33,109 nt of DNA from positions 1 to 33,109 of the IMG/VR virus record IMGVR_UViG_3300021404_000032; one strand, 5' to 3'. Positions 2,551-32,963 of this stretch are shown here, piece after piece (the first letter of the stretch is position 1; the number at the start of each line of letters is the position of its first letter). The notes under the pieces were generated by a model, which saw only the letters and a program-made list of their open reading frames with translations, was not told the DNA's origin and made no database searches. The translations under genes were made by a program, and so were the position numbers. The DNA is from a virus.

Positions 2551-3300
2551 ATGCACAACCCTATCCTGCGCACAGCCGTGTGCTTCCTCGTCCTGGCTAC
2601 CGCTATCGTCGGGACCTTTGTCCTGTCTAGCTACGTCTCCGCGACCACGAGCCGGCCAGCCGCTCGCCAGTACTGGGGCACTGCGCCGCAGAGCGCGACC
2701 CTGCCGCGTCCGGATGCCTACTGCGCCGCGCGGGTCCAGCTCGCCCCGGAGCGCGTCGCAGGGAACGCCGTAGCCAACCACACAGTACCTCCGCGAGGCA
2801 CGAAGCTCCGTCTCGGCCCCTGGCGGCTTCAGGACCCAGTCATGGCCCGGAACTTCGCGAAGGTAACCGGCAACTTCAAGGGCACAACCGACGAGATCCT
2901 TGAATGGGCAGCCTGTAAGTGGGGCTGGGATCAGAACGCTCTCAAGGCTCAGGCCGTCGCGGAGTCTACCTGGAACCAGAGGGAGGCGGGCGACCGCGAT
3001 GCGCACGGATTCGAGTCCTGGTGTATCCTGCAGGTGAAGGTCGCGCGACCGGCTCCACCCACCAACGACAATGCGTGGGGAGGCTATCCATGGGTGTCAC
3101 GGTCAACGGCCTTCTGCGCCGATCTGATGGCGGCCTGGCTCCGCTCCGTCTATACCGGCCACAGCTACATGGGCCGTTCGGTATACAACAACTTCTGGGG
3201 AACGGTTTCCGCGTGGCAGTCGGGCTATAACTCCGGCGTTGACGGCTACGTCCGCGAGGTCCAGTATTACCTACGCCACCAGACCTGGAGGACTCTGTGA
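2551..3300 (+). CDS. Membrane-anchored or secreted lytic-transglycosylase-like protein
   Basis: This is a 249-residue protein with a perfect AGGAGG ribosome binding site five bases before the ATG. Residues 1-30 form a signal-anchor (basic start, then AVCFLVLATAIVGTFVLSSYV). After a linker, residues 112-249 resemble the lysozyme-like GH23 fold. AQAVAESTWN supplies the candidate catalytic Glu138, ESWCILQVK matches the conserved glycine/glutamine loop of soluble lytic transglycosylases, and WQSGYNSGVDGYVREV matches their C-terminal helix. It would cleave peptidoglycan outside the membrane. It could serve lysis, entry, or wall opening for DNA transfer (compare VirB1-like enzymes); the FtsK-like gene 3 kb to the right makes the last option worth noting. 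No holin was recognised beside it. Confidence 0.7.
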   Translation: MHNPILRTAVCFLVLATAIVGTFVLSSYVSATTSRPAARQYWGTAPQSATLPRPDAYCAARVQLAPERVAGNAVANHTVPPRGTKLRLGPWRLQDPVMARNFAKVTGNFKGTTDEILEWAACKWGWDQNALKAQAVAESTWNQREAGDRDAHGFESWCILQVKVARPAPPTNDNAWGGYPWVSRSTAFCADLMAAWLRSVYTGHSYMGRSVYNNFWGTVSAWQSGYNSGVDGYVREVQYYLRHQTWRTL

Positions 3301-3330
3301 TAGAAGGTCTCGCCTGAAAAAGTCTAATTG

Positions 3331-3402
3331 ATAGCCCGTAGGGTCTAGACCAGACTGGACCTTACGGGCTATTATTGTACTTAGGCGAACAAAGGCGAGA
3401 CG
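3331..3402 (+). promoter_or_regulatory. Terminator overlapping the next promoter and leader
   Basis: ATAGCCCGTA (3331-3340) pairs with TACGGGCTAT (3363-3372), and the stem extends inward through GGGTC/GACCT with one G-U pair. The 3' arm runs into a TATTAT -10 box (3370-3375) and the conserved leader TAGGCGAACAAAGGCGAGACG before the ATG at 3403. Termination of the upstream unit and initiation of the downstream one therefore share bases. Confidence 0.6.
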
Positions 3403-3579
3403 ATGGAACCTTGTAACATGATCTGGGTAATCCGTATCGAGCACAACGGTGTTCCGGTCGGGCCGTCTATCCTGTCTCTCGGCTGGAATGTCTGGTCGCG
3501 TCTTGCGGCCGTCAGCCGTTACCTACCAGCGGGATGGGCCGTGGAAGCCTACCCGGTTATTGAGGTGCGAAATGCTTAA
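3403..3579 (+). CDS. Small protein, function unknown
   Basis: This is a 58-residue frame directly behind the conserved AAAGGCGAGACG leader. The sequence contains MIWVIRIEHNGVPVGPSI and a segment rich in Trp, Val and Ala, and looks like a small beta/alpha domain. I do not recognise it. The leader and the overlap with the next gene support that it is translated. Confidence 0.6.
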   Translation: MEPCNMIWVIRIEHNGVPVGPSILSLGWNVWSRLAAVSRYLPAGWAVEAYPVIEVRNA

Positions 3580-5099: not shown

Positions 5100-5142
5100 T
5101 CCGCGAACCGTCGCTAACTCGCTCTCGCTTTCTAAAAGCGCC

Positions 5143-5202
5143 TACAGATTACCGCTTACCCCTTACTAAACCGCCTACCGCGTACCACTTACACCTACCG
5201 GA
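5143..5202. repeat. Tandem array of degenerate 7-bp repeats (TACCNCT)
   Basis: Eight TACNNNN units follow one another: TACAGAT, TACCGCT, TACCCCT, TACTAAA, then five bases, TACCGCG, TACCACT, a six-base TACACC and TACCGGA. Starts are at 5143, 5150, 5157, 5164, 5176, 5183, 5190 and 5196, so most steps are exactly 7 bp. The array is bracketed by the inverted repeat CTTTCTA (5128-5134) and TAGAAAG (5213-5219). It lies in the 236-bp gap before the DUF2637/FtsK-like genes. Confidence 0.65.
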
Positions 5203-5248
5203 AAGCGACCGCTAGAAAGAGACTCGACTAACTATGTGAGTAAGAGGG

Positions 5249-5335
5249 TACACTTGCCGTAAGGCATAAGCGCCCCACCCGAAGCACGGCCGCGCTCCGG
5301 GCAGGGCTAGCCCCAACCTCTAAGCGGAGAAAAGG
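5249..5335 (+). promoter_or_regulatory. Promoter of the translocase operon
   Basis: GGGTACACTTG matches the TATACTTG core seen at other genes, giving a -10 box TACACT at 5249-5254. No good -35 box was found 16-17 bp upstream, so activation by a protein bound at the neighbouring repeat array is possible. The leader is about 75 bases and ends in GGAGAAAAGG before the ATG. Confidence 0.5.
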
Positions 5336-6247
5336 ATGGGACCTATGACCGATAGTACGCCTACGGGCTCTTTCCGGAGTAGGCTGGGCGCTGCTCTACG
5401 CATCGCCTACACACGCTTTATCTGGCTGCTCGTACTCGTGCCGATCCTCGGCGTGAGCGCTTACTCCCTCTTCTGGGTCGCGCGCCATTTCGGCGTGCCG
5501 CCTTTCATCGCCATCTTCATGAGTACGTGCTTCGACGGAGCCGCGCTCGTGGGAGCCGACTACTCCCTGAAGTATGCGCAAAAGGGTATGTCTGGCAGCA
5601 AGCCACGCGCATTCGTCAACTGCCTCGCCCTCGTCTCAGCCTTCCTTCAGACATTCCATGCCCGGCTGGCCGGCGAGCCGTACGGCGCATGGGTTATGTG
5701 GGCAAGCCTACCGATCATTGCGGTCGTGCTCTATGACATCCATATCCATTACGAGCGGCGCAAGGCGCAGGCTCGCTCCGGCTCCATCTACCCGTCGCCA
5801 CTGCCCAAGTATGGCATCGTGCGCTGGTTCCTCTTTCCCCTCGCCACGCTCAGCGATCTCCGTGACATCATCGTCGCGCGGTCGCGCGCTCTCCAGACGG
5901 TAGCGCTGACGCTGGCCGACGAATTCCAGCGTGAGGCACGTTCCGTCCGGAACGTCCGCGAGCGCATCGAGCCCGCACCCGCAGAACCGGCGCTAGAGCC
6001 CGCAGAGCCACAGCAGGAGCGCACGCCGGACGTTGTACCTCCGGACGTCCTCCGGCAGCACCGCGCAGCTAGGCAGACGGCTCCGCGCGACGGAAGCTGG
6101 ACTCAGCGGCACAAGCCGGACATCCATATCCGCGAGTGGGCGCTGAACCGCGACGAGTACCGTGGTCGCGTTGGCCGGCGCGGACCTCTCCCGCCAGACA
6201 TCAAGGAAGACTACTACAGGGAACACCCTGACGAACGGAGTGGGTGA
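5336..6247 (+). CDS. DUF2637-like four-helix membrane protein
   Basis: This is a 303-residue protein. Residues 24-160 hold four probable membrane helices: FIWLLVLVPILGVSAYSLFWV, PFIAIFMSTCFDGAALVGA, AFVNCLALVSAFLQTF and WVMWASLPIIAVVLYDIHI. The polar FDGAALVGAD in helix 2 matches the position of the PLSVDGL motif of the DUF2637 (SpdB-like) family from actinobacterial plasmids and prophages. The C-terminal 130 residues are cytoplasmic, Glu/Pro/Arg-rich and end in a small basic domain. The start may be 5336 or 5345; GGAG is six bases before 5336. It overlaps the FtsK-like gene (TGATG), so the two probably work together at the membrane. The exact role of DUF2637 proteins is not established. Confidence 0.7.
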   Translation: MGPMTDSTPTGSFRSRLGAALRIAYTRFIWLLVLVPILGVSAYSLFWVARHFGVPPFIAIFMSTCFDGAALVGADYSLKYAQKGMSGSKPRAFVNCLALVSAFLQTFHARLAGEPYGAWVMWASLPIIAVVLYDIHIHYERRKAQARSGSIYPSPLPKYGIVRWFLFPLATLSDLRDIIVARSRALQTVALTLADEFQREARSVRNVRERIEPAPAEPALEPAEPQQERTPDVVPPDVLRQHRAARQTAPRDGSWTQRHKPDIHIREWALNRDEYRGRVGRRGPLPPDIKEDYYREHPDERSG

Positions 6248-7914
6248 TGTCTGACTTTGTTATGCACCAGCTCCACCTCCCCTGGTGGGTGCCGTTCGTG
6301 TTCTGGTTCGGGCTGTACATCCTTACGGCCTCCGGCTGGATCCTGAACGGCTACGGCATGGAGTACCTCGGCTGGCGCCATCCAGGACGGCCCGGCAAGA
6401 TTCATCGCGTCCTCGTCCGGTTCCACACGGGCGCACACATCCATCCGGACAAGAGCTATGGCGATGAGCGCAGGCTCCGTAGCATAGCCGGAAGCTCTAA
6501 CCGCGCAACGCCAGAAGGCGCAATCGTCTACTTCGCCCAGCGGTCGCGCGGTTACCGGGCAATCCGTAACAACGTCATTGTGATCCTAGTCCTGGTGATC
6601 CTGAGCTGTATGGCGGATAGCCCGGCCGACACGGTACGCGCCATCACCATCGCTATCGTCCTAGCTATACTCTGGAAGCTGACTGTGGTCGTGCTACGGG
6701 CTCGTGTCGCCTACCGGCGAACCCATCCCGTCAGCCAGCCCGCGCTCGCCACAACCAAGATCGCCCGGCAGGTATTCGGAGCCGATGAGATGACGGAGGG
6801 TAACCGGCCGATCCTGGAAGTGGAAGAGAAGCCACAGCTGGAGGGTGTACCCAAGAACGTCCTCGCATCCCTGCTCGCGAGCAAGATGGGCTGCTCGGCT
6901 GCCGAGGTAACGGCCCGGCTCAAGATGAGCCCGGAACAGGGCAGCATCCAGCTGCCCGATACGTTCGGCGCGCTACTCCGCGAGCGAGAGCCGGTACAGG
7001 AGGTCATCGAGGCGCACACGGTCGGCAAGGTCCGGTTCGTCTGGAAGACTACCGAGACGCCTCGCATGCTCGTGTGGATTCCGGTCATCGTTCCCAAGCT
7101 CCCGGACATGGTCCGCTTCCGCGACTACCTAGACAAGCTGGAAGCACTGGGCCCACGGGAGACCGGGCTAGGCGTCCGGGCTGACAAGACGATGTACGTA
7201 CAGAGCCACAATGGAGACCTTCCGTGGTGGTGCCGCTTCATGGGCTCCGGTACTGGGAAGTCCATGAGCTTCCTCGTTAAGGCCGCGCAGATCGCCCACA
7301 AGGACCCACTAGCCGACATCTACTGCATCGACACCAAGCAGGTCTCATTCGAGGCTCTTCACGGGATTCCCGGCATCCACATCTTCGACAATCCGGTCAC
7401 GGAGATGGATAAGATCTGGAAGACTTTCTATGACCTGAACGGCATTCTCGAATCCCGGTACACGGCCGTCCGCGAGAAGCGCAAGCGGCTCTCCGACTTT
7501 GGTGACATCTGGGTATTCTGCGACGAGGGTAACCACCTGGGCGGCAAGCTCAAGACCTACTGGACCAAGACCCTAGGCGAGTCGTCCGCGAGCCCGGTTA
7601 TCTGGGCCGAGGCAATCGCGCCTCTTCTCCAGCAGGGCCGGCAGGCGAACATGTTCGGTGAGTTCATGTTCCAGGACCTTACCGACCGCGCGATGGGTGG
7701 GCAGTCCCTCAAGTTCGCGTTCTCTGCATTCTGCGCGGCAGGATTCCAGCCTAACCAGTTCACAAGGACGATTGGCCCTCCGGCTATGGACTGTCTGGAA
7801 GGACCGGGTAAGATACTAGTGTGCCAGGGGAACAAGCGAACCTGGACGCAGGGCTTCATGGATGACGAGCAATGGCTTCACGACTACGCGCTAGAGAACA
7901 GGAAGGGCCGATGA
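6247..7914 (+). CDS. FtsK/TraB-type membrane-bound DNA translocase
   Basis: This is a 555-residue protein. The N-terminal 160 residues contain about three membrane helices (VPFVFWFGLYILTASGWIL; VIVILVLVILSCMA; AITIAIVLAILWKLTVVVL). A linker domain follows, then a P-loop motor domain with Walker A GSGTGKS near residues 333-339 and Walker B IWVFCDE near 420-426. LLQQGRQANMFGEFMFQD corresponds to the conserved FtsK segment with the arginine finger. FtsK/SpoIIIE/TraB proteins pump double-stranded DNA through a membrane pore; Streptomyces TraB does this with 8-bp repeats as targets. The DUF2637 partner and the repeat array upstream fit that model. A phage role in genome transfer or segregation is inference. 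It starts at the ATG at 6247 and overlaps the next gene. Confidence 0.8.
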   Translation: MSDFVMHQLHLPWWVPFVFWFGLYILTASGWILNGYGMEYLGWRHPGRPGKIHRVLVRFHTGAHIHPDKSYGDERRLRSIAGSSNRATPEGAIVYFAQRSRGYRAIRNNVIVILVLVILSCMADSPADTVRAITIAIVLAILWKLTVVVLRARVAYRRTHPVSQPALATTKIARQVFGADEMTEGNRPILEVEEKPQLEGVPKNVLASLLASKMGCSAAEVTARLKMSPEQGSIQLPDTFGALLREREPVQEVIEAHTVGKVRFVWKTTETPRMLVWIPVIVPKLPDMVRFRDYLDKLEALGPRETGLGVRADKTMYVQSHNGDLPWWCRFMGSGTGKSMSFLVKAAQIAHKDPLADIYCIDTKQVSFEALHGIPGIHIFDNPVTEMDKIWKTFYDLNGILESRYTAVREKRKRLSDFGDIWVFCDEGNHLGGKLKTYWTKTLGESSASPVIWAEAIAPLLQQGRQANMFGEFMFQDLTDRAMGGQSLKFAFSAFCAAGFQPNQFTRTIGPPAMDCLEGPGKILVCQGNKRTWTQGFMDDEQWLHDYALENRKGR

Positions 7915-8330: not shown

Positions 8331-8461
8331 AGGCTCGCATACGGGTCAGCGCCGGAGCCCTCGCACCGCTGGCACTGCTTCAGCGGGCAGAGGCGCGACT
8401 TCCCACTACCGCCGCACATCCCGCAGGGGATCTCAGTCGTCTCGTTCTCGTTCTCGCCCAT
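8327..8461 (-). CDS. Orphan CxxCxGxG (DnaJ-type) zinc-finger microprotein
   Basis: This 44-residue minus-strand protein has the sequence CGMCGGSGKSRLC then QCQRCEGSG: two CxxCxGxG motifs as in the central zinc domain of DnaJ, but with no J domain. It is preceded by TAGACTTTGGGT directly before the ATG; with a -35-like TAGACG 17 bp upstream this predicts a leaderless message. It is alone on its strand and ends convergently on the membrane-protein gene, with four bases shared. Small free-standing CxxCxGxG proteins occur in actinobacteria and their phages; the function is not known. Confidence 0.6.
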   Translation of the reverse strand: MGENENETTEIPCGMCGGSGKSRLCPLKQCQRCEGSGADPYASL

Positions 8462-8535
8462 ACCCAAAGTCTAGCCGAGGCTGCCCAGAACGTCTAGAGG
8501 TTTTGCGGAAAAGTTCGACAGCCGGCCACGCTTGT

Positions 8536-8567
8536 TCGAAATTGGTTTCCGATCGAAATTGGTTTCC
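8536..8567. repeat. Pair of 15-bp direct repeats, likely operator
   Basis: TCGAAATTGGTTTCC occurs twice, at 8536-8550 and 8553-8567, 17 bp centre to centre. Each copy contains GAAA-N4-TTTC, an inverted pair of half-sites. The palindrome TTTCTAGAAA 26 bp to the right carries the same half-sites in the reverse order. This looks like a multi-site binding region for a dimeric regulator. Confidence 0.55.
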
Positions 8568-8638
8568 TAACTTGCAGCCGTTCGATTGCGGTTTTCTAGA
8601 AATACCAATGACCAGCCAAAACTCATGAAACCGGCTCG

Positions 8639-8782
8639 ATGGGTAACTACTGCCTGCCCATGGTCGCTGCGCTCTGCATCGCTCTCTGGGCCGTGCAGGG
8701 CTATTTGCTGCAGAGTAGCCGGAAGTCGCCTAAAGTAGTCAAAGAAAGTTTGCCAGATCGTTCGCCATCCTGCCATGCATGA
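8639..8782 (+). CDS. Possible small membrane peptide
   Basis: This 47-codon frame has one hydrophobic segment (MVAALCIALWAVQGYLL) followed by a basic tail. There is no ribosome binding site and no conserved leader, and it ends just before the next promoter. It may be chance coding in a control region. Confidence 0.25.
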   Translation: MGNYCLPMVAALCIALWAVQGYLLQSSRKSPKVVKESLPDRSPSCHA

Positions 8783-8819: not shown

Positions 8820-9317
8820 ATGAAACTGATAGCGTTCAACGTGAGCGACGGGACTGTGGAGATCCACGAGGCGACTTGCGCGGATATTAAGCGCGGCGAC
8901 CGGAAGCGCGGAAGCCACCAGAGGTCGGCTCACTGGCGGTCGGACCAGGTTGAGTTCGGCAAGATTGACTGGCCGACCAAGTACGACTTCTGCTTCGACT
9001 ACTGGAACAACGGAATCCTCGAAGAGCACGAAGCGGAGAACGGCCCCGGCTCGTTTGATGTCTGGCAGGGGATGGACTTCAAGCCCTGCTGTAACGCGCT
9101 CCCCCACGATGCCCTCGTCGGTAGCGGCGAGCCGATCCCGGAGCCCGCGAAGCGCGGATCGAATGCCCTCCGGAAGGAAGCCCGCGAGGCTCTCTGGAGC
9201 GGTATCGAGAACATGCTCAACGACACGGTCTACAAGAGCCAGCCGGAGCTTTACGCGATGATGGTGGCTCAGTCGGAGCGAGTCGCGTATATGTTCGGGA
9301 TGCGCGACGAGAAGTAA
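8820..9317 (+). CDS. Protein of unknown function
   Basis: This is a 165-residue soluble protein behind the conserved GAGGAAAGGCGAGAAG leader and a TAGACT box. It contains CADIKRGDRKRG and a strongly basic patch (RGSHQRSAHWRS), an aromatic central region (YDFCFDYWNNG), a paired cysteine KPCCNALP, and a helical C-terminus ending YMFGMRDEK. The basic patch suggests nucleic-acid contact, but no family was recognised. A terminator follows 12 bases after the stop, so it is a single-gene unit. Confidence 0.75.
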   Translation: MKLIAFNVSDGTVEIHEATCADIKRGDRKRGSHQRSAHWRSDQVEFGKIDWPTKYDFCFDYWNNGILEEHEAENGPGSFDVWQGMDFKPCCNALPHDALVGSGEPIPEPAKRGSNALRKEAREALWSGIENMLNDTVYKSQPELYAMMVAQSERVAYMFGMRDEK

Positions 9318-9329
9318 GCGAGGCGAACG

Positions 9330-9410
9330 GCCCGGAGGAAGTTCCTCCGGGCTCTTTGCTTTCTGGCAGACATAGGGTATACTTGCCCTAGGCGAACGAA
9401 AGAGGCGAAG
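9330..9410 (+). promoter_or_regulatory. Terminator-promoter-leader cassette A
   Basis: GCCCGGAGG (9330-9338) and CCTCCGGGC (9344-9352) form the terminator stem. Its tail CTCTTTGCTT contains the -35 box TTGCTT (9356-9361). After exactly 16 bp comes TATACT (9378-9383), then the leader TTGCCCTAGGCGAACGAAAG and the ATG at 9411. Confidence 0.75.
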
Positions 9411-9701
9411 ATGAGCTTGTTGAAGGTTACCCCCACCGAGAAGATGATGCAGATCACAAAGGTTCCGGCCGGCATCAAGATACGCCAGCTGGCAGGGATC
9501 AGCTATGTGGCCTATAGCATCGAGGTCAACGCGACCGGCTACTACCCGGTCATCGTCCGCGACACGGACGGCCACGCGCACTACTTCCGCACGGACGCGC
9601 GGGTAATCGTTCCGGTCGGTACGGTGTCGCTGGACGACTGCCAGGACCACGACGATGAGCATGGATGCTGCGACTCGTGCGGTAAGTGGGCCGACCGATG
9701 A
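9411..9701 (+). CDS. Small protein with C-terminal zinc-knuckle-like cysteines
   Basis: This 96-residue protein starts directly behind cassette A. The body is beta-rich (IKIRQLAGISYVAYSIEV; YYPVIVRD; RVIVPVGTVSL). The C-terminus HDDEHGCCDSCGKWADR carries two His and three Cys that could bind zinc. Function unknown. It overlaps the next start codon, so these two genes share this promoter. Confidence 0.7.
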   Translation: MSLLKVTPTEKMMQITKVPAGIKIRQLAGISYVAYSIEVNATGYYPVIVRDTDGHAHYFRTDARVIVPVGTVSLDDCQDHDDEHGCCDSCGKWADR

Positions 9702-9877
9702 TGACGTTTGGGACTACCAAGCTAGCCGGGCGAGACGTACCGTGCCCGACCGGCAAGCAGATTCGGCAGGACCTCGCAGACTTGTGGTACGGCTGCCACG
9801 CGGTTAGCCGCGTTGATCCGGAGATCGCCCGGCTGTGGTGGGATCGGTACCGCGCCTGGGGCGGCACAGGAAACTAG
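9698..9877 (+). CDS. Small protein, function unknown
   Basis: This 59-residue frame begins at ATGATG overlapping the previous stop. The sequence has a helical, Trp-rich second half (DLADLWYGCH; ARLWWDRYRAWGG). It may be a small DNA-binding or interaction helix pair, but nothing specific is recognised. A terminator follows five bases after the stop. Confidence 0.6.
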   Translation: MMTFGTTKLAGRDVPCPTGKQIRQDLADLWYGCHAVSRVDPEIARLWWDRYRAWGGTGN

Positions 9878-9882
9878 GCGCG

Positions 9883-9968
9883 AGCCCGGAGGAAAGTTCT
9901 CCGGGCTTTCGCTTTGCTTTATAGCAGACGTCGGGTATACTTGTGGTAGGCGAACGAAAGGCGAGAAA
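9883..9968 (+). promoter_or_regulatory. Terminator-promoter-leader cassette B
   Basis: AGCCCGGAG (9883-9891) and CTCCGGGCT (9899-9907) form the stem. The T-rich tail holds TTGCTT (9914-9919). A 16-bp spacer precedes TATACT (9936-9941). The leader TAGGCGAACGAAAGGCGAGA runs to the ATG at 9969. Confidence 0.75.
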
Positions 9969-10238
9969 ATGACTGAATTTAGCTGGGCTCTTACCGAAGA
10001 GGTCGATGTGACCCTGCTCGCGACCAACGCGGATACCCTTAACAATTCCTTCCTGATCGAGCGGATTGAAGAGCCTGGAGCGTTTGTGCTCGCGTTCGCG
10101 GATGCGGATGTCCTCGTGAACGGCGTGTACCGAGACCTCGGTGAAGACCTGATGTACTTCTGCTCCCTCTCTGATGAGCTAACGATGTTCCGTGCCGATG
10201 TCGGCGCGACCGTCCGGGTAAACCCTCCGGCGCTCTAG
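9969..10238 (+). CDS. Small acidic protein, function unknown
   Basis: This 89-residue protein is acidic and beta-rich, with two cysteines at most and no membrane segment. It starts with MTEFSWALTEEVDVTLLAT and contains FVLAFADADVLVNGVYRD. It is a single-gene unit with its own cassette promoter on the left and a terminator 13 bases after the stop. Its size, acidity and separate strong promoter are typical of early phage proteins that act on host factors; this is inference only. Confidence 0.75.
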   Translation: MTEFSWALTEEVDVTLLATNADTLNNSFLIERIEEPGAFVLAFADADVLVNGVYRDLGEDLMYFCSLSDELTMFRADVGATVRVNPPAL

Positions 10239-10251
10239 GGAAGGCGCGACG

Positions 10252-10328
10252 TGCCCGGCTCCGGCCGGGCATTTTGCGTTTTAGCAGAAGTAGGGTATAC
10301 TTGACCTAGGCGAACGAGAGGCGAGGAA
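10252..10328 (+). promoter_or_regulatory. Terminator-promoter-leader cassette C
   Basis: TGCCCGGC (10252-10259) and GCCGGGCA (10264-10271) form the stem with a TCCG loop and a TTTT tail. The tail overlaps TTGCGT (10274-10279), and a 16-bp spacer leads to TATACT (10296-10301). The leader TAGGCGAACGAGAGGCGAGG precedes the ATG at 10329. Confidence 0.75.
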
Positions 10329-10778
10329 ATGACGACGGTGCGCGAAGAGTACCCGGCCGAGTACGAGGCCGGTTTCAATTTCGAGCGATACGGGACCAAA
10401 CCGGAGATCCGCTGCGGAGGCGCGTATATCGAGGGCGAGCCCGGAGCCGCCGAGAAAGCTGACCGTTACTCCGCTTTCTGCGAAGGGATGTGCGACGGTA
10501 CCCGCGCCCGGTGGGCGGCCGGAGGCGCGACCGATCGCGAGCGCGAGCTACTAGAGCAGGGTCACGCAGCGCAGCGGGCTCGCGGTATCGAGCCGCTGCC
10601 TATGCCGCCGACCTTCCGGCCGGTACCGGGCTCCGAGTATTTCGGAGAGATCAGCCGGTGTTGGTTCGCGACCGACAGCGGAGACGGCGAAGTCATCCGT
10701 GCGGAGCCGACGCGAGAGCAGGCCGACAGCCCGGATGTCTGGCTCCTGACCGAGGACACCGTATGGGGTCCGGAGTAA
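10329..10778 (+). CDS. Protein of unknown function
   Basis: This 149-residue soluble protein has the own promoter of cassette C. It contains AEYEAGFNFERYG, a Cys-containing segment SAFCEGMCDGTRARW, a helical middle rich in Arg and Glu (DRERELLEQGHAAQRARG), and an acidic C-terminus ending LTEDTVWGPE. I do not recognise a family. It is followed by the structured non-coding interval rather than by another gene. Confidence 0.75.
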   Translation: MTTVREEYPAEYEAGFNFERYGTKPEIRCGGAYIEGEPGAAEKADRYSAFCEGMCDGTRARWAAGGATDRERELLEQGHAAQRARGIEPLPMPPTFRPVPGSEYFGEISRCWFATDSGDGEVIRAEPTREQADSPDVWLLTEDTVWGPE

Positions 10779-10802
10779 ACCGGTAGCGCGCTCCGGATCT
10801 AT

Positions 10803-10985
10803 GGAGTAGAATTGCGATAGTTAGCTGCGCCCCTTTGAGTGGTTCCTTCCGGACGCGGCTAGCAGCGCCACCCGCGCAACACAATCTAACCAGCGGCTTG
10901 CTCAGACTGATTCCGTGATGTATGGCGGTAGGCCTGTTCCGCTGGCGACTATGATTGGACTTCGACGCGGGTGGCGCCATTTTGA
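10803..10985 (+). ncRNA. Candidate structured noncoding RNA
   Basis: The 267-bp gap between two cassette genes has no supported coding frame. TAGAATTG at 10807 resembles the local -10 core. Downstream are three nested, correctly ordered stems: GCGCCACCCGCG (10865-10876) with CGCGGGTGGCGC (10966-10977), CAATC (10882-10886) with GATTG (10953-10957), and CCAGCGG (10890-10896) with CCGCTGG (10939-10945). A CATTTT tail follows. The result is a rod-like RNA of about 110-175 bases ending in a terminator. It has no tRNA or tmRNA features. It could instead be a large terminator or an operator, but 24 nested pairs are hard to explain that way. Confidence 0.55.
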
Positions 10986-11045
10986 GTTCTGGAGAAAATG
11001 GCCTATACTTGCCGTAGGCGAACTAACGTAGCAAAGGCGAGAACG
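10982..11045 (+). promoter_or_regulatory. Promoter and leader D
   Basis: TTGAGT (10982-10987), a 16-bp spacer and TATACT (11004-11009) are followed by the leader TAGGCGAACTAACGTAGCAA and AGGCGAGAACG before the ATG at 11046. The -35 box again overlaps the T-tail of the hairpin upstream, here the basal stem of the candidate RNA. Confidence 0.7.
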
Positions 11046-11504
11046 ATGACTGAGACCGACCGGAAGACCTGGGAGACGGAGCCCTGCGAGAAGCACGATC
11101 TGACGTGCTGCGGCGACTGTCTTGAGCAGGCCAAGCTGAAGCGCGACGAGCACGGTGACTTCCAGTACCGGAGCGACTGCGCCGTACAGACGTACTCGGA
11201 GATCACCGGTATTAGCTACAGCATCGCGGCCTCGATCATGCTTGCGAACGGATTCCGTCCGGGAGTCGGCACGCGCGGCAGCGACCTCCGCGCCGCTTTC
11301 GAGCAGACCGGGCTAACGGTTACCAACGTCACCTACATGGGCCCTGAAGGCGCAGTCGTGGCGTCTATGGAGGAAGGCCGGAGGTTCTACGTCCACGGTA
11401 CCAAGGGCAAGCGAGCCCACGCGTGGTCCATCACGGACGGCAACGAGAACCGGCCGTACTTCCCTCCGTACAACTACCGTGTGTTTGAGGTCACCGGATT
11501 TTGA
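11046..11504 (+). CDS. Papain-like/C39-like cysteine protease fold protein (putative)
   Basis: This is a 152-residue protein. A Cys cluster near the N-terminus (CEKHDLTCCGDC) could bind zinc. RSDCAVQTYSEITG places a candidate nucleophile Cys45 at the start of a helix, and KRAHAWSITDG places a candidate His125 with a nearby Asp. The glycine-rich strands between them suit a papain-like fold of the kind seen in small phage and plasmid proteins. If active, it would cleave or transfer acyl groups on a host or phage protein. Family assignment is by pattern only. The -35 box of the next promoter overlaps its stop codon. Confidence 0.55.
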   Translation: MTETDRKTWETEPCEKHDLTCCGDCLEQAKLKRDEHGDFQYRSDCAVQTYSEITGISYSIAASIMLANGFRPGVGTRGSDLRAAFEQTGLTVTNVTYMGPEGAVVASMEEGRRFYVHGTKGKRAHAWSITDGNENRPYFPPYNYRVFEVTGF

Positions 11505-11557
11505 CTTTTAGCAAACATGAGGTATACTTGCCCTAGGCAAGAACGAAAGGCGAGAAG
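11501..11557 (+). promoter_or_regulatory. Promoter and leader E
   Basis: TTGACT (11501-11506, over the previous stop codon), a 16-bp spacer, and TATACT (11523-11528) form the best consensus promoter in the window. The leader TAGGCAAGAACGAAAGGCGA precedes the ATG at 11558. There is no terminator upstream, unlike cassettes A-C. Confidence 0.75.
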
Positions 11558-11848
11558 ATGGACGAGATGCGGCGATGGAGCGCGGAGATCACATTCTACG
11601 GCTCCGACTTGGACCTTGCGTTCCGTAGGAACGGCGAAACGATCGCGGCGAACGCGAGCGCGAACGACCTTCAGAAGGAACAAGCAAGGTCGGCCGTTAG
11701 CGAGGCGAGCGAGTACCTAAGAGCCGGGCTAGGCGAGATAGCCCATATTACCCTATTCAAGACTACCAAGGCTAACGGTACCGTTCCGGACCAAACTTGG
11801 TACGTGGAGCTTGACGAGCGCTCCGGCCGTTACGTCGGCCGTAGGTAA
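11558..11848 (+). CDS. Small protein, function unknown
   Basis: This 96-residue protein stands behind promoter E. It is predicted as alternating strands and one helix: ITFYGSDLDLAFRRNG, a helix through DLQKEQARSAVSEASEYL, then HITLFKTTKANG and TWYVELDE. No motif or membrane segment is seen. It begins a short unit with the next small frame. Confidence 0.75.
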   Translation: MDEMRRWSAEITFYGSDLDLAFRRNGETIAANASANDLQKEQARSAVSEASEYLRAGLGEIAHITLFKTTKANGTVPDQTWYVELDERSGRYVGRR

Positions 11849-11889
11849 GAGCCCGCGAGTAGGCGAGTAGACAGGAACGATCGGTAAGG

Positions 11890-12066
11890 TTGATAGCGGA
11901 GCCCTGGCGTGTGGAGGTTCACTCCTACGCCGATAGGCCGCGTAAGGTTATGGTGTGGAAGCGAGGCCACGGCAATCAGTGGTACTTTCAGAACTCACTG
12001 ACCATCGACGAGGACGTTGACGCGGAAATTCTCAAGAACGAGGTAATTAGCAGGCTCCCTGTGTAG
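11890..12066 (+). CDS. Small protein, function unknown (non-ATG start)
   Basis: An open frame from 11863 ends at the TAG at 12064-12066 and codes for about 58 residues, including WRVEVHSYADRPRKVMVW and KRGHGNQWYFQNSLTIDEDVD. This has protein-like composition and codon use. It has no ATG near the start; TTG 11890 or GTG 11911 (with GGAG nine bases upstream) would serve. It lies 41 bases after the preceding gene. Confidence 0.45.
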   Translation: MIAEPWRVEVHSYADRPRKVMVWKRGHGNQWYFQNSLTIDEDVDAEILKNEVISRLPV

Positions 12067-12086
12067 CGCTCTGTGCGTCTGTGCGC

Positions 12087-12123
12087 TATACTTGGGGTAG
12101 GCGAAAACGAGAAAGGCGAGAAA
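12087..12123 (+). promoter_or_regulatory. Promoter -10 and leader F
   Basis: TATACT at 12087-12092 is followed by TTGGGGTAGGCGAAAACGAG and AAAGGCGAGAAA directly before a GTG start. The -35 region is poor. Although the start codon is GTG, the leader is as well conserved as at the ATG genes. Confidence 0.6.
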
Positions 12124-13083
12124 GTGGAACTTAGCAAGACGATGACGAGGGTGCGAGCCCTCATCGCGAAGGCCGAGAACCTTGAGTCTCTGGGCGACCC
12201 TGAGAGCATGAACGAGGCCAGCAGCTGCCGCGCGAAGGCGAACGAGATGATGGACCGGTACGGCCTTGAGGAGTGGGAGCTTCTGAAGGATGCCCCGACC
12301 GGATTCAAGCCAACCCGGATCAAGGTAGACATCGGAGAGGCCGGCAACCCGTTCCTGTCCGAGACGTCTACACTCGTGAATGTGGTCGCGACCTTCTGTA
12401 AGTGCTCGTCCGTGTGGATGAAGGGCTCCGGCTACAAAAACGTCCGCGAAGAGTACTGCTACGTGTACGGGTACGAGAGCGACCTGCGGTACTTCGAGCT
12501 GCTGTTCACCACGATCTACCTCCACATGGCAGAAACGATCTTCCCCAAGCCAGACCCCAATCAGTCGCTAGGCGAGAACGCTTACGAGCTTCACAACGCC
12601 GGACTCAACTGGTTCGACATCGCGCAGGCGTACGGCTGGGAGCAGACCGATAGCTGGATGGGCGAGCCCAAGCTCATGTACCGTAACCGGGCGACCGGCG
12701 AGCGCGCCTCATGGGGCAAGAGCATCGGCCGGATCAAGTCAGCTTACACCGCCGAGATCAAGGCTCGCGGCGAGGACGCGCTGCGCATTCCTCCGTCCGG
12801 CTCCGAGAACTTCCGCCGCAACGCGGTTCAGGGTTACCTCCACCGGATCGCTCAGCGGCTCCGGGAGATCACCGGCAAGCGCGGCACGGGTATGGAGCTA
12901 GTCCTCGCGGACAAGTCCCAGAATATCCGCGCGATGATCGATAGCGACTTCGACAAGGTCCGGATGGAGCGGAACAAGGATGTCAAGTACAACGCTGCGG
13001 CTTACCGGCGAGGCGTCAACCACGCCAACACGGCGAGCCTTCAGCCGGAGGCATCCGCCGCTCCGCGCGGCCAGCTAAACTAG
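12124..13083 (+). CDS. DUF2786-domain protein
   Basis: This 319-residue protein starts at the GTG at 12124, chosen because it follows the conserved leader. Residues 8-45 match the DUF2786 signature: RALIAKAENLESLGDPESM, then NEASSCRAKANEMMDRYGLE. This helical domain is common in actinobacterial, phage and plasmid proteins. The rest is a larger helical domain with FCKCSSVWMKG and a paired-helix C-terminus (RKVRMERNKDVKYNAAAYRRG type). The biochemical role of the family is not established. It is a single-gene unit closed by a 13-bp terminator stem. Confidence 0.75.
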   Translation: MELSKTMTRVRALIAKAENLESLGDPESMNEASSCRAKANEMMDRYGLEEWELLKDAPTGFKPTRIKVDIGEAGNPFLSETSTLVNVVATFCKCSSVWMKGSGYKNVREEYCYVYGYESDLRYFELLFTTIYLHMAETIFPKPDPNQSLGENAYELHNAGLNWFDIAQAYGWEQTDSWMGEPKLMYRNRATGERASWGKSIGRIKSAYTAEIKARGEDALRIPPSGSENFRRNAVQGYLHRIAQRLREITGKRGTGMELVLADKSQNIRAMIDSDFDKVRMERNKDVKYNAAAYRRGVNHANTASLQPEASAAPRGQLN

Positions 13084-28798: not shown

Positions 28799-28986
28799 TC
28801 CGCGACTTTCCGGTAAGCGTCGATGACGAGGACGCGCGAATGCTCGCATACCTTATCTGGTCTGCTGAGCTAGCTAGATTCGGCGGCACGCCGGTATCGG
28901 GCGAGGACGATGTGGAAATCAAAGAGATGATAGCGGAAGGCGATATCCTGATGGTGCGTGTCCTAGGGCTAGCCGAGCGTGGCTGA
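28768..28986 (+). CDS. Small acidic protein, function unknown
   Basis: This 72-residue acidic, helical protein (DEDARMLAYLIWSAELARFG; DDVEIKEMIAEGDILMVRVL). It overlaps the PHP-domain gene by eight bases. Because it is directly upstream and overlapping, it is probably co-translated with the polymerase pieces. Confidence 0.6.
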   Translation: MGSPEQFVALIRDFPVSVDDEDARMLAYLIWSAELARFGGTPVSGEDDVEIKEMIAEGDILMVRVLGLAERG

Positions 28987-29923
28987 CGCCGATATCACCT
29001 ATGTTAATCTCCATGGACATTCGACCTTTAGCCACGGAGACGGGCACAAGCTGCCCCGGTACCATGTGGAGCGCGCGGCCGAGCTAGGCTATAAGGCTAT
29101 GGCGCTTACCGAGCATGGTGGCGTTAGCTCTCATTTCCAGCTTGAGAAATACGGCATACAGCTAGGCGTCAAGCCGATATTCGGGCTAGAGGGATATACC
29201 GGAGCCGTCGATGACGAACACAAGGGACAGTTCAAGTTCCACCTCACAATTCTCGCGAGAGATTCCGGAGGGTACAGAAATCTCAATAAAGTCGTCACCC
29301 AGTCGTGGCGTGATTATCATTATCATCCGACCATCTCAGGAAGCTCGCTCGCAGCGAACCGAGATGGACTGGCAGTATTGTCTGGATGCAGCGGTAGTCT
29401 TCTTGCTTGCTCTCTTCTCGGCGGTAAAGGGATACCAGAGCCCGTCAGTAAGCGGGCCGGGTATAATCGAGCCCTAGAGGTAATCGAGCGGTTCTATGAT
29501 ACATTCGGCAATTACTACTTCCTAGAGGTTCAGCCTTTCTGGGAGCTGCCCAGGACGTCTGAGATCAATACCACGTACGAAAAGCTATCGAGGGAGACGG
29601 GCGTGCCTCTTGTTGTCACGTGCGACGTCCATTACCCACGGCCGGATGATGGCGAGATGCAGGCTATTCTACACGCGGTCCATCGCGGGAAGCACTCGAT
29701 TGACGATGCGCTCCGTGAGTGGAATTACGAGGTCCCAATGACGCTTCCGCTTTCCGACCGCGAGCTAGCCGAGCGGCTAATGAAAACTGGCCTTTCCCGG
29801 AAAGCTTCGATGGAGGCTATTCAGTCCTCCGCGAACATTGCTGGTTTCTGTAACGTAACCCTACCGAAAGCCGACCGGCTCCGGTACCCGATTAGCGAGG
29901 ATGACGATGTGCCATGGATCTAG
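28979..29923 (+). CDS. dnaE: DNA polymerase III alpha, separate PHP (proofreading-type) domain
   Basis: This 314-residue protein matches the N-terminal PHP domain of DnaE and ends where the polymerase core would begin. All nine metal ligands of active PHP domains can be placed: His12, His14, Asp21, His46, Glu71, His88, Cys137, Asp216 and His218. In mycobacterial DnaE1 the corresponding residues carry out 3'-5' proofreading, so this piece is likely an active exonuclease acting on the polymerase from a separate chain. It starts at a GTG. The end (YPISEDDDVPWI) shows no intein sequence. It overlaps the next gene by ten bases. The polymerase core is 736 bases downstream. Confidence 0.85.
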   Translation: MADADITYVNLHGHSTFSHGDGHKLPRYHVERAAELGYKAMALTEHGGVSSHFQLEKYGIQLGVKPIFGLEGYTGAVDDEHKGQFKFHLTILARDSGGYRNLNKVVTQSWRDYHYHPTISGSSLAANRDGLAVLSGCSGSLLACSLLGGKGIPEPVSKRAGYNRALEVIERFYDTFGNYYFLEVQPFWELPRTSEINTTYEKLSRETGVPLVVTCDVHYPRPDDGEMQAILHAVHRGKHSIDDALREWNYEVPMTLPLSDRELAERLMKTGLSRKASMEAIQSSANIAGFCNVTLPKADRLRYPISEDDDVPWI

Positions 29924-30491: not shown

Positions 30492-30667
30492 TGGAAGGTA
30501 TCGACGGCTGGACTCGCGAGCTATGGCGAATCTCCCAGGATGATGATATGCGTATCGACCTCGCCGGCAAGATCCAGGATATTGTCGATGAGATGCGCAC
30601 AACAGCCCATCTCCCGGTATTCGGCATCAACGATGTCGTGATTGATACGGAGCCAGTCGATGGGTAA
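30491..30667 (+). CDS. Small acidic protein before the polymerase core
   Basis: This 58-residue acidic protein (ELWRISQDDDMRIDLAGKIQ; HLPVFGINDVVIDTEPVDG) begins in TAATG and overlaps the polymerase start by eight bases. The first half is a helix with repeated Asp/Ile. Its overlaps on both sides indicate a real, co-translated gene. Confidence 0.6.
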   Translation: MEGIDGWTRELWRISQDDDMRIDLAGKIQDIVDEMRTTAHLPVFGINDVVIDTEPVDG

Positions 30668-32963
30668 TACGGAAGTTAAGTCGGAGCGCTCCCGGCCAGA
30701 GGCCGAGGCAATGCTGTGGAAGTGGCTCCGGTTTGGATGGGAATACCGGCGCGTAGGTGAACGGTCCCAGGAGCAGCGCGAGTGGTACGGCGACCGCGTA
30801 AAGTATGAGATGGACCTGATCCTTGAGCGCGGGCTCGCGGATTTCTTCCTGTTTACCTCCGACACGATCCGGTGGGGTAAGGATCACGGCGTGGCGTTCG
30901 GCCCCGGACGCGGCTCAACGGCCGCATCGGTTGTCGCCTGGCTACTCCGGATTACTGAGATCGATCCATTCCGCTATCAGGGTATGGTTTTTGAGCGCTT
31001 CCTCGATATCTCCCGTCCGGACCCACCAGACATCGACGTTGACTGCTCCGACGAGGACCGCTGGAAGGTCTGGAAATACCTGGAGCGGAAGTACGGCCGT
31101 GACTGTTTCGGGCACATCGGCAATTTCGTCCGGTACCGTGGGAAGAATTCCCTTGACGATGTGGCCCGCGTATACAACATCCCTATCTGGGTCGTTGAGA
31201 TAATCAAGAACCTCCTAGTTGAAAGGTCGGGAGGCGACTCGCGGTTTGACGCTACCCTTGCCGATACCTTTGATATGTTCCCAGCGGCGCAGGACGTCCT
31301 AGACGAGTATCCCGATCTAATCAAGGCGACGAGGCTAGAGGGCGACATACGCGGAATGAGCGTTCACGCCGCTGGCCTGGTAATCGCGAATAGCCCGCTA
31401 ACGGATATCTGCGCCGTGTACGAGAAAGATGGCGTGCAGGTAATGTCCGTCGATAAGTATGACGCGGAGTACATGGGAGCCCTCAAGCTAGACTTCCTAG
31501 GGCTTACCACTATGGGAATGATCGCCCGCTGTCTAAAGATGGCCGGCCTGACTCTGGAGGACCTTTATGCGATACCCGATACTGACCCTGGAGCTATCGA
31601 GATTTTCCGTACCGGAGACGTCATCGGCGTGTTTCAGTTTGAGGGTAGAGCTACTAGGCTCGTCAACCGAGACGTCCGGCCAGATCACTTCATGCATATC
31701 ACAGACGTCAATGCGCTATCGCGTCCTGGCCCGCTGTTTTCCGGACAGACCGCAGACTACGTGGACGTCCGGCATGGGCGTAAGAAAGCAGAAAGCCTTC
31801 ATCCGCTCGTAGACGAGATCACGCACGATACCTACGGGCAGATAATCTATCAGGAGCAGATCCTCCGCATCCTCAAAGAGATGGGCGGATTCGACTGGTT
31901 CTCCGTCTCACAGATCCGGCGCATCATATCCAAGAAAATGGGCGAAGCCGCATTCCAGATGTCATACGAGCAGTTCGCTCAGGGCGCACTCGATGGCTAC
32001 GGAGTAGACCGCGAGCTAGCCGATAAGATCTGGAAGCGGCTTGTTACGTCTGGTACCTATTCCTTCAACATCGCCCATGCCATAAGCTACTCGATGCTAG
32101 CATTCTGGACGGCGTGGCTCAAGGCGAATTACCCGCTTGAGTTCTATGCGGCCTCGCTCGCGAAGGCGACGAAAGCAGAGACCCAGTTCCGGCTAATGCG
32201 AGATGCCCTCGCCCACTCGATAGACGTCCGGCCTCCGGACCCGAGGTATGCGCGACGGACCTGGACGCCGCATGTGGTAGCGAACGAACGGCCGGAGCTA
32301 CGGAGGCAGGAGCTACTCGCCGGATGGGAGCAGGTTCCAAAGATCGGCAAGAAAATGGCCGAGCGGATAGACGCCGAGAAGCCAGATGGTGGCTGGAAGA
32401 GTTTCTATGACCTAACCCGTATCGATGGGATCGGCCCGAAGACAGCCGAGCGCATGGCTGAGTTTGCGGCGGCCAATGACCCGTTCGGGCTCTACCGTAC
32501 CGAGAAGAAACTTGCGGCCGTGGACCGCTGGCTCAGACAGCAGAAAGCGGTCCCACAGCCGACCCATAACGGTGAGCATCTGGCGGCTATGGAAGTAGTA
32601 AAGAATCCTGCTCCGGGCAGGCGCTTCGCGCCTGGACCTGCGGTGGTTTATGCCGGGGTAGTTAGGAGAGTTGAATATAAGGATATCGTTGAGGACGAAC
32701 GGAGCCGCTCCGGCCGCGAGGTCGAAGAGATCCTCGCAGAGCTAAAGCGGCCCGATCTAATCAAGCGAGCTACCCTCCATATGTACGACGAGAGCGACGA
32801 GGAAGTTTATGGCCGCGTCAATAGATGGAAGTTCCCCGGACTGCTAAAGAAACTACAGACGATTCACGTCAACCACGACGTCGTGGTTATCGCCGGATTC
32901 CGGATAGCCGGATTCGGTACGCCGGTAATGATAAACAATATGTGGGTTATCGATCCCGATTAG
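30660..32963 (+). CDS. dnaE: DNA polymerase III alpha, polymerase core without PHP domain
   Basis: This 767-residue protein carries the catalytic core of DnaE. FGPGRGSTAASVVAWLL is at about 80-96, PDIDVD gives catalytic Asp126 and Asp128, and KLDFLGL gives the third Asp278. RPGPLFSGQTADYV, YQEQILRI and YSFNIAHAISYSMLAFWTAW follow in normal order. Beyond the fingers are helix-hairpin-helix segments (EQVPKIGKKMAERID; RIDGIGPKTAERMAEF) and an OB-like end. The first 60 residues replace the PHP domain with a charged helix pair. It polymerises the phage DNA and must work with the PHP piece encoded upstream or without proofreading. The ATG at 30660 was chosen over 30642 because it gives the usual short overlap. 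Confidence 0.9.
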   Translation: MGNTEVKSERSRPEAEAMLWKWLRFGWEYRRVGERSQEQREWYGDRVKYEMDLILERGLADFFLFTSDTIRWGKDHGVAFGPGRGSTAASVVAWLLRITEIDPFRYQGMVFERFLDISRPDPPDIDVDCSDEDRWKVWKYLERKYGRDCFGHIGNFVRYRGKNSLDDVARVYNIPIWVVEIIKNLLVERSGGDSRFDATLADTFDMFPAAQDVLDEYPDLIKATRLEGDIRGMSVHAAGLVIANSPLTDICAVYEKDGVQVMSVDKYDAEYMGALKLDFLGLTTMGMIARCLKMAGLTLEDLYAIPDTDPGAIEIFRTGDVIGVFQFEGRATRLVNRDVRPDHFMHITDVNALSRPGPLFSGQTADYVDVRHGRKKAESLHPLVDEITHDTYGQIIYQEQILRILKEMGGFDWFSVSQIRRIISKKMGEAAFQMSYEQFAQGALDGYGVDRELADKIWKRLVTSGTYSFNIAHAISYSMLAFWTAWLKANYPLEFYAASLAKATKAETQFRLMRDALAHSIDVRPPDPRYARRTWTPHVVANERPELRRQELLAGWEQVPKIGKKMAERIDAEKPDGGWKSFYDLTRIDGIGPKTAERMAEFAAANDPFGLYRTEKKLAAVDRWLRQQKAVPQPTHNGEHLAAMEVVKNPAPGRRFAPGPAVVYAGVVRRVEYKDIVEDERSRSGREVEEILAELKRPDLIKRATLHMYDESDEEVYGRVNRWKFPGLLKKLQTIHVNHDVVVIAGFRIAGFGTPVMINNMWVIDPD

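Follow-up and report, generated by a model that had tools for sequence, protein, structure and literature searches.

In a 33-kb record of an actinophage-like virus, genes for proteins of 149 and 152 aa are separated by 267 nt (10779-11045), which we tentatively read as a cassette for a small RNA with a last helix that also serves as its terminator. Among the explanations weighed, a small RNA was ranked first, with an enlarged terminator close behind. Transcription would start near 10819 from a TAGAAT element, one base before a hairpin that we call H1, would cross H1 and a rod-like second hairpin, H2, and would end at the U run at 10980-10983. The predicted product is an RNA of ~165 nt, almost entirely made up of the two hairpins. 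Judging by its position, the outer 12-bp helix of H2 would act as an intrinsic terminator shielding the next promoter, and the RNA would most likely act in trans during infection, conceivably through the C/U-rich loop of H1 or as a protein-binding rod. The candidate plausibly belongs to an already known kind, the phage small RNAs.

Positions refer to the window, the whole 33,109-nt stretch of DNA that was analyzed. An earlier note on this DNA had described three nested stems of a given geometry, a TAGAAT and a TTTT, all of which are present where it placed them (Table 1). Two further hairpins were absent from its description: H1, which lies immediately 5' of the rod and has a C/U-rich loop of ~24 nt (10830-10853), and a hairpin at 10766-10800, which carries no U tail. 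In H2, 89 nt lie between the arms of the outer helix, and the 5x8 internal loop becomes 4x6 if one more pair forms.

Table 1. Coordinates of the candidate RNA, its helices and its flanking signals and genes.
Feature	Position	Strand	Description
Upstream small gene	10329-10778	+	149 aa; from the ORF list; 97% identical homologue in G002
Hairpin over stop codon of upstream gene	10766-10800	+	-18.5 kcal/mol; 11 outer pairs
-10-like TAGAAT (8-mer TAGAATTG)	10807-10812	+	Resembles the phage's own promoters
Hairpin H1	10820-10863	+	10 bp; each pair probability at least 0.99
Rod H2	10865-10977	+	12 + 5 + 7 bp; internal loops 5x8 and 3x7
H2 outer helix	10865-10876/10966-10977	+	12 bp
H2 middle helix	10882-10886/10953-10957	+	5 bp
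H2 inner helix	10890-10896/10939-10945	+	7 bp
TTTT	10980-10983	+	Two bases (CA) after H2; overlaps -35 hexamer of next promoter
Promoter of 11046 gene	10982-11009	+	TTGAGT, 16 nt, TATACT; cassette repeat
Downstream gene	11046-11504	+	152 aa; marker for finding the slot in relatives

The arrangement of these features favors a small RNA: the two hairpins occupy a stretch that begins 7 nt past a phage-like -10, ends at the U run and holds no credible ORF. When the 66,202 8-mers in the window were scored with a matrix built on 16 cassette promoters (from this phage and its relatives), 21 exceeded TAGAATTG at 10807. Five of those 21 had themselves gone into the matrix, whose rows also include a doubtful promoter, window 469, that was retained. 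Counting against a small-RNA cassette, TAGAAT has no TTGNNN -35 box and does not appear in the sigma-70 scan listing.

From ~9300 to 12126, the spacers between most genes are cassettes that fuse a T run to the -35 of the promoter that follows, and six TATACTTG-TAGGCGAA sites with at most 3 mismatches occur where 0.10 are expected. The cassettes at 9355-12105 follow the order TTTTGC, about 16 nt, TATACTTG, TAGGCGAAC and AAAGGCGAG. H2 ends 26 nt before the next -10, compared with 23, 24 and 25 nt for the three other cassette terminators listed. The earlier claim that all other gaps are short cassettes holds approximately for ~9300-12126 but does not extend to the window, where the gaps at 8331-8774 and 5100-5335 are longer.

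The same placement also suits the second-ranked reading, that H2 is an enlarged intrinsic terminator with an 89-nt folded loop that ends the 10329 transcript, the rest being 3' UTR with no function in trans. We consider this possible, if somewhat less probable than a small RNA. H2 sits nearly at the position of a cassette terminator, the stem abuts the TTTT directly in the one homologue found, and a terminator is still needed here because the hairpin over the stop codon has no U tail. Like known intrinsic terminators, H2 is a GC-rich stem followed by a U run (12-bp stem, CA, TTTT); unlike them, it encloses 89 folded nucleotides rather than a loop of 3-8 nt, and the terminator scan did not list it. 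That scan found a compact hairpin in three of the five other cassettes (none is listed at 11523 and 12087), and neither H1 nor the -10 would be required for termination.

Folding gives the structure a marginal advantage over chance. For the interval 10803-10985, as first delimited, the expectation of a fold better than shuffled sequence was not clearly borne out (z about -1.64; 16/200 and 20/300 shuffles at least as stable). Narrower boundaries gave z -2.46 for 10814-10985 (6/300 shuffles as stable) and z -3.27 for 10818-10984 (1/300), and H2 alone reached z -3.45 (0/300), with H1 alone at z -1.12 (37/300). These trimmed boundaries were picked after the fold had been seen; when the same choice was allowed to the shuffles, 28/300 matched with 122-nt windows, 18/300 with 168-nt windows and 58/300 with the whole gap, values that weaken the case for a small RNA. 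The z score of H2 ranks 14th among 826 windows of 122 nt in the record. The strongest local fold among the 826, at 3281-3402 (z -7.9), is a long terminator-like hairpin ahead of an ORF at 3403.

A third reading, which we judge unlikely, is a structure that arose by chance in a spacer left behind as genes turned over within a variable region. The boundary-corrected p of about 0.06-0.09 is in its favor, as is the finding that a 12-bp inverted repeat with a spacing of 30-150, which occurs once in the record, has a mean of 0.55 in shuffles and appears at least once in 36/100 of them; the slot also differs among relatives. Chance would not, however, readily account for a -10, H1, H2 and a U run in that order, or for a homologous copy that is almost unchanged. 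The minus strand folds equally well (z -3.86, 0/300 shuffles), which is a further point against a plus-strand RNA. An RNA from that strand was set aside: its best -10 in 10700-11000 scores 2.4, compared with 8.9 for TAGAATTG, and no minus-strand site near this locus is among the window's 40 best sites.

The single homologue that was found lies in a close relative, IMGVR_UViG_3300020582_000027 (here G002; loci L002, L021 and L037), and differs by four substitutions and a 3-nt gap over 168 nt. All 33 counted pairs in the four main helices are unchanged between the two sequences, and no compensatory change is seen. The outermost H2 pair (10865-10977), which the 3-nt gap alters, was excluded from the 33 and argues against the small RNA. 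An A-to-G change at 10853, on one side only, extends the unbroken helix of H1 from 10 pairs to 13, and the copy folds with z -3.50 (1/300 shuffles as stable). The preserved pairs, the longer H1 helix and this fold favor a small RNA. The earlier suggestion of a structured noncoding RNA in the slot is consistent with the sequence, although two of the checks that the earlier note had named, compensatory changes and folding against shuffled sequence, come out weak. Divergence from the homologue also points to a small RNA: the RNA differs at 4/168 sites, the pair of flanking genes at 25/155 fourfold sites (Fisher p 1.8e-5). In the nearest flanking coding sequence, however, 3/51 fourfold sites differ and the RNA is not significantly lower (p 0.36), so that constraint is indistinguishable from a recently exchanged block, which explains the low divergence equally well.

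The content of the slot is variable among relatives. Of 11 loci found via a DUF2786 gene, six (L037, L038, L039, L040, L042 and L046) contain the downstream gene, and the RNA is present in one of these, L037 from G002, its absence from the other five counting against a small-RNA cassette. As judged by reading, L039, L040 and L046 have a plain terminator-promoter cassette at the slot. In L042 (G004), the slot holds a different noncoding stretch of ~140 nt that ends in a 13-bp terminator, a parallel that favors the small-RNA reading; this stretch folds with z -2.31 (7/300) when the terminator is included and no better than shuffled sequence (z 0.04) without it. At the slot, L038 carries a noncoding element (z 0.32 and -0.24) whose match in the window is 8593-8722.

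Other noncoding gaps of the window have features of their own. The gap at 8331-8774 contains a conserved noncoding element of ~130 nt (window 8593-8722; L037 2476-2605; L038 8306-8435) that is 78% identical in L038, where it follows the 8775 gene instead of preceding it. On inspection, neither of its small frames looks conserved, and one has a stop in G002; in a three-sequence fold, 2 of 34 pairs changed on both sides and the covariation term was unfavorable. Its TCGCTCTCYGGGCC core (window 8679-8692) recurs exactly in three more phage contigs (L042 11459, L045 11030 and L047 995), in other places of the gene order and, by reading, roughly 45-100 bp before a promoter-like -10. This core contains CGCTCT, which we take to be reminiscent of boxA. 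Two direct, iteron-like copies of CGAAATTGGTTTCC lie in the same gap at 8537-8567. A long noncoding gap at 5112-5332, with CCGCTTACC-like repeats, precedes a DUF2637 gene and is 77% identical over 225 columns in L038.

Homology searches extended the family no further. Across the window Rfam had no match at gathering score, and relaxing the cut-off to E 5 for 10760-11050 gave none either; nor was there one in the relatives L038, L040, L042 and L046. Among named phages, the RNA itself had just five matches, each 22-24 nt long, at E 8, and plasmids returned no match. The two 12-bp arms were not found together in viral contigs, a negative of little weight, as this exact pattern would miss even the shortened arm of G002. 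By blastn, the slot matched three of eight whole records at E up to 10, at length in G002 only, and five of 14 whole records at E up to 1, all over 14-20 nt; those of 20 nt in G015 and G013 were attributed to chance and probably fall within a reverse-strand coding region. Across 28 sources totaling 424,784 bases, a model of the rod (R1), built from two near-identical rows and so reaching close relatives only, recovered both known copies and one further match, at window 9221-9309 on the minus strand (E 3.8); over 14 whole records it gave no match at E up to 1. Over nine more loci it matched L049 (E 0.038), a hit that overlies the blastn match of G013 and was taken as chance. The promoter pattern occurred in 12 contigs, one of them G002; the other 11 were searched with R1 as loci, five of them also whole. 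Searches of bacterial and archaeal genomes with the family of the 11046 gene and with an FtsK-like gene of the window gave no relative, and hence no prophage copy was found.

We infer from gene content that the virus is actinophage-like and has an actinobacterial host. The record encodes DnaE-type polymerase genes, an exonuclease, a Sak4-like protein, ThyX and endonuclease VII, and the best 25 of 1344 named-phage matches to the polymerase are all from Mycobacterium phages (46.6-47.4% identity). The two DnaE-type genes (28979-29923 and 30642-32963) match successive parts of one PHROG polymerase family and have small ORFs between them, as in a split polymerase. At the DNA level, window 9900-12600 matches no named phage record, and a tRNA/tmRNA search returned none. 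The product of the 10329 gene has no family match in PHROG or Pfam; that of the 11046 gene has none in either database and none among named phages. Seven sequences of the 11046 family share an invariant Cys and His (DC.V.T and H.W), and this family possibly adopts a cysteine-peptidase-like fold. At 5336-7914, the DUF2637 gene is followed by the FtsK-like gene, a weak Pfam match below the curated cut-off whose protein is matched by none of 50,697 named phage records.

How a small RNA from this cassette might act was approached through its loops. Against 64 candidate translation starts in the window (an SD-like site with an ORF of at least 55 aa; many are surely not genes), the H1 loop and the apical loop of the rod showed no better complementarity than shuffled loops; 72/100 and 50/100 shuffled loops did as well as the best antisense duplexes, in a comparison that covered phage targets. 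This result tells against the small-RNA reading. A bolder version, which as a whole we regard as improbable, holds that the phages of this group carry exchangeable noncoding RNA cassettes in a slot of the small-gene region and that this one encodes a new structured-RNA class, which would bind a host factor (RNA polymerase or a defense system) directly and thereby disable or redirect it. In the matches listed from literature on phage small RNAs, 6S/Ms1 and mycobacteriophage noncoding RNA, and in the excerpts of them available, the element is undescribed. Should it be transcribed, the element would count as a small RNA of a phage group that, for the DNA here, has no match among named phage records, and, with plain cassettes or other noncoding inserts filling the slot in relatives, noncoding cassettes would join the exchangeable gene repertoire. 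If it is a terminator only, it is ordinary.

A DNA-level or replication element, such as the RNA-based prophage origin of non-RepA mycobacteriophages, is in our view very improbable. What the two share is a noncoding RNA in an actinophage-like genome, and in favor of the idea Alma and LadyBird have regions of 400-500 bp, directly upstream of parA, that express a noncoding RNA and are needed for stable lysogeny (PMC7157519). These known origins adjoin parA, whereas no ParA/ParB family was matched (PHROGs) among the 40 window ORFs searched.

A small protein gene is more improbable still. As the earlier note had it, the 267-nt gap contains no credible gene: the longest ORF wholly internal to 10779-11060 reaches 38 aa and lacks a AAAGGCGAG-type ribosome site, and longer ORFs overlap the gap without lying inside it (95 aa at 10693-10980 and 83 aa at 10902-11153, both on the minus strand; on the plus strand, one from 10998 in frame with the next gene). 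The 95-aa ORF was rejected because its ATG is lost in the 3-nt gap of G002, whose copy likewise has no credible ORF. The plus-strand frame of 37-38 aa, from 10915 or 10918 to 11031, is not interrupted by the 3-nt deletion in G002; it was nevertheless rejected, as both internal substitutions are nonsynonymous (Pro to Leu, Glu to Ala), the phage-type ribosome site is missing and the frame extends across the next promoter.

Least probable of all is binding of host RNA polymerase in the manner of 6S or Ms1, an action that the earlier note had floated and that is unsupported given the lack of an Rfam match (E up to 5), the lack of a large central bubble and the description of 6S as widespread except in Actinobacteria, where Ms1 occurs (PMC9130861, which also mentions an earlier 6S claim in Streptomyces coelicolor). 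The candidate does resemble 6S in its rod-like hairpin and in a length near the roughly 180 nt of that RNA. According to PMC4191392, however, 6S has a large single-stranded central bubble between its stem arms, and the stable internal loops of H2 are just 5x8 (4x6) and 3x7. Ms1 is about 300 nt long, with a central bubble and two short hairpins near its ends, and Rfam detects it only near mycobacteria (PMC4191392, PMC9130861); the RNA here is ~165 nt, has no such bubble and matches no Rfam family. For the preferred small-RNA reading, phage-encoded small RNAs in general offer a comparison, among them IpeX of prophage DLP12, a 167-nt RNA made from the transcript of a phage gene (PMC12197685). The putative RNA is similar to IpeX in size and, if derived from a 3' UTR, might be made in a comparable way.
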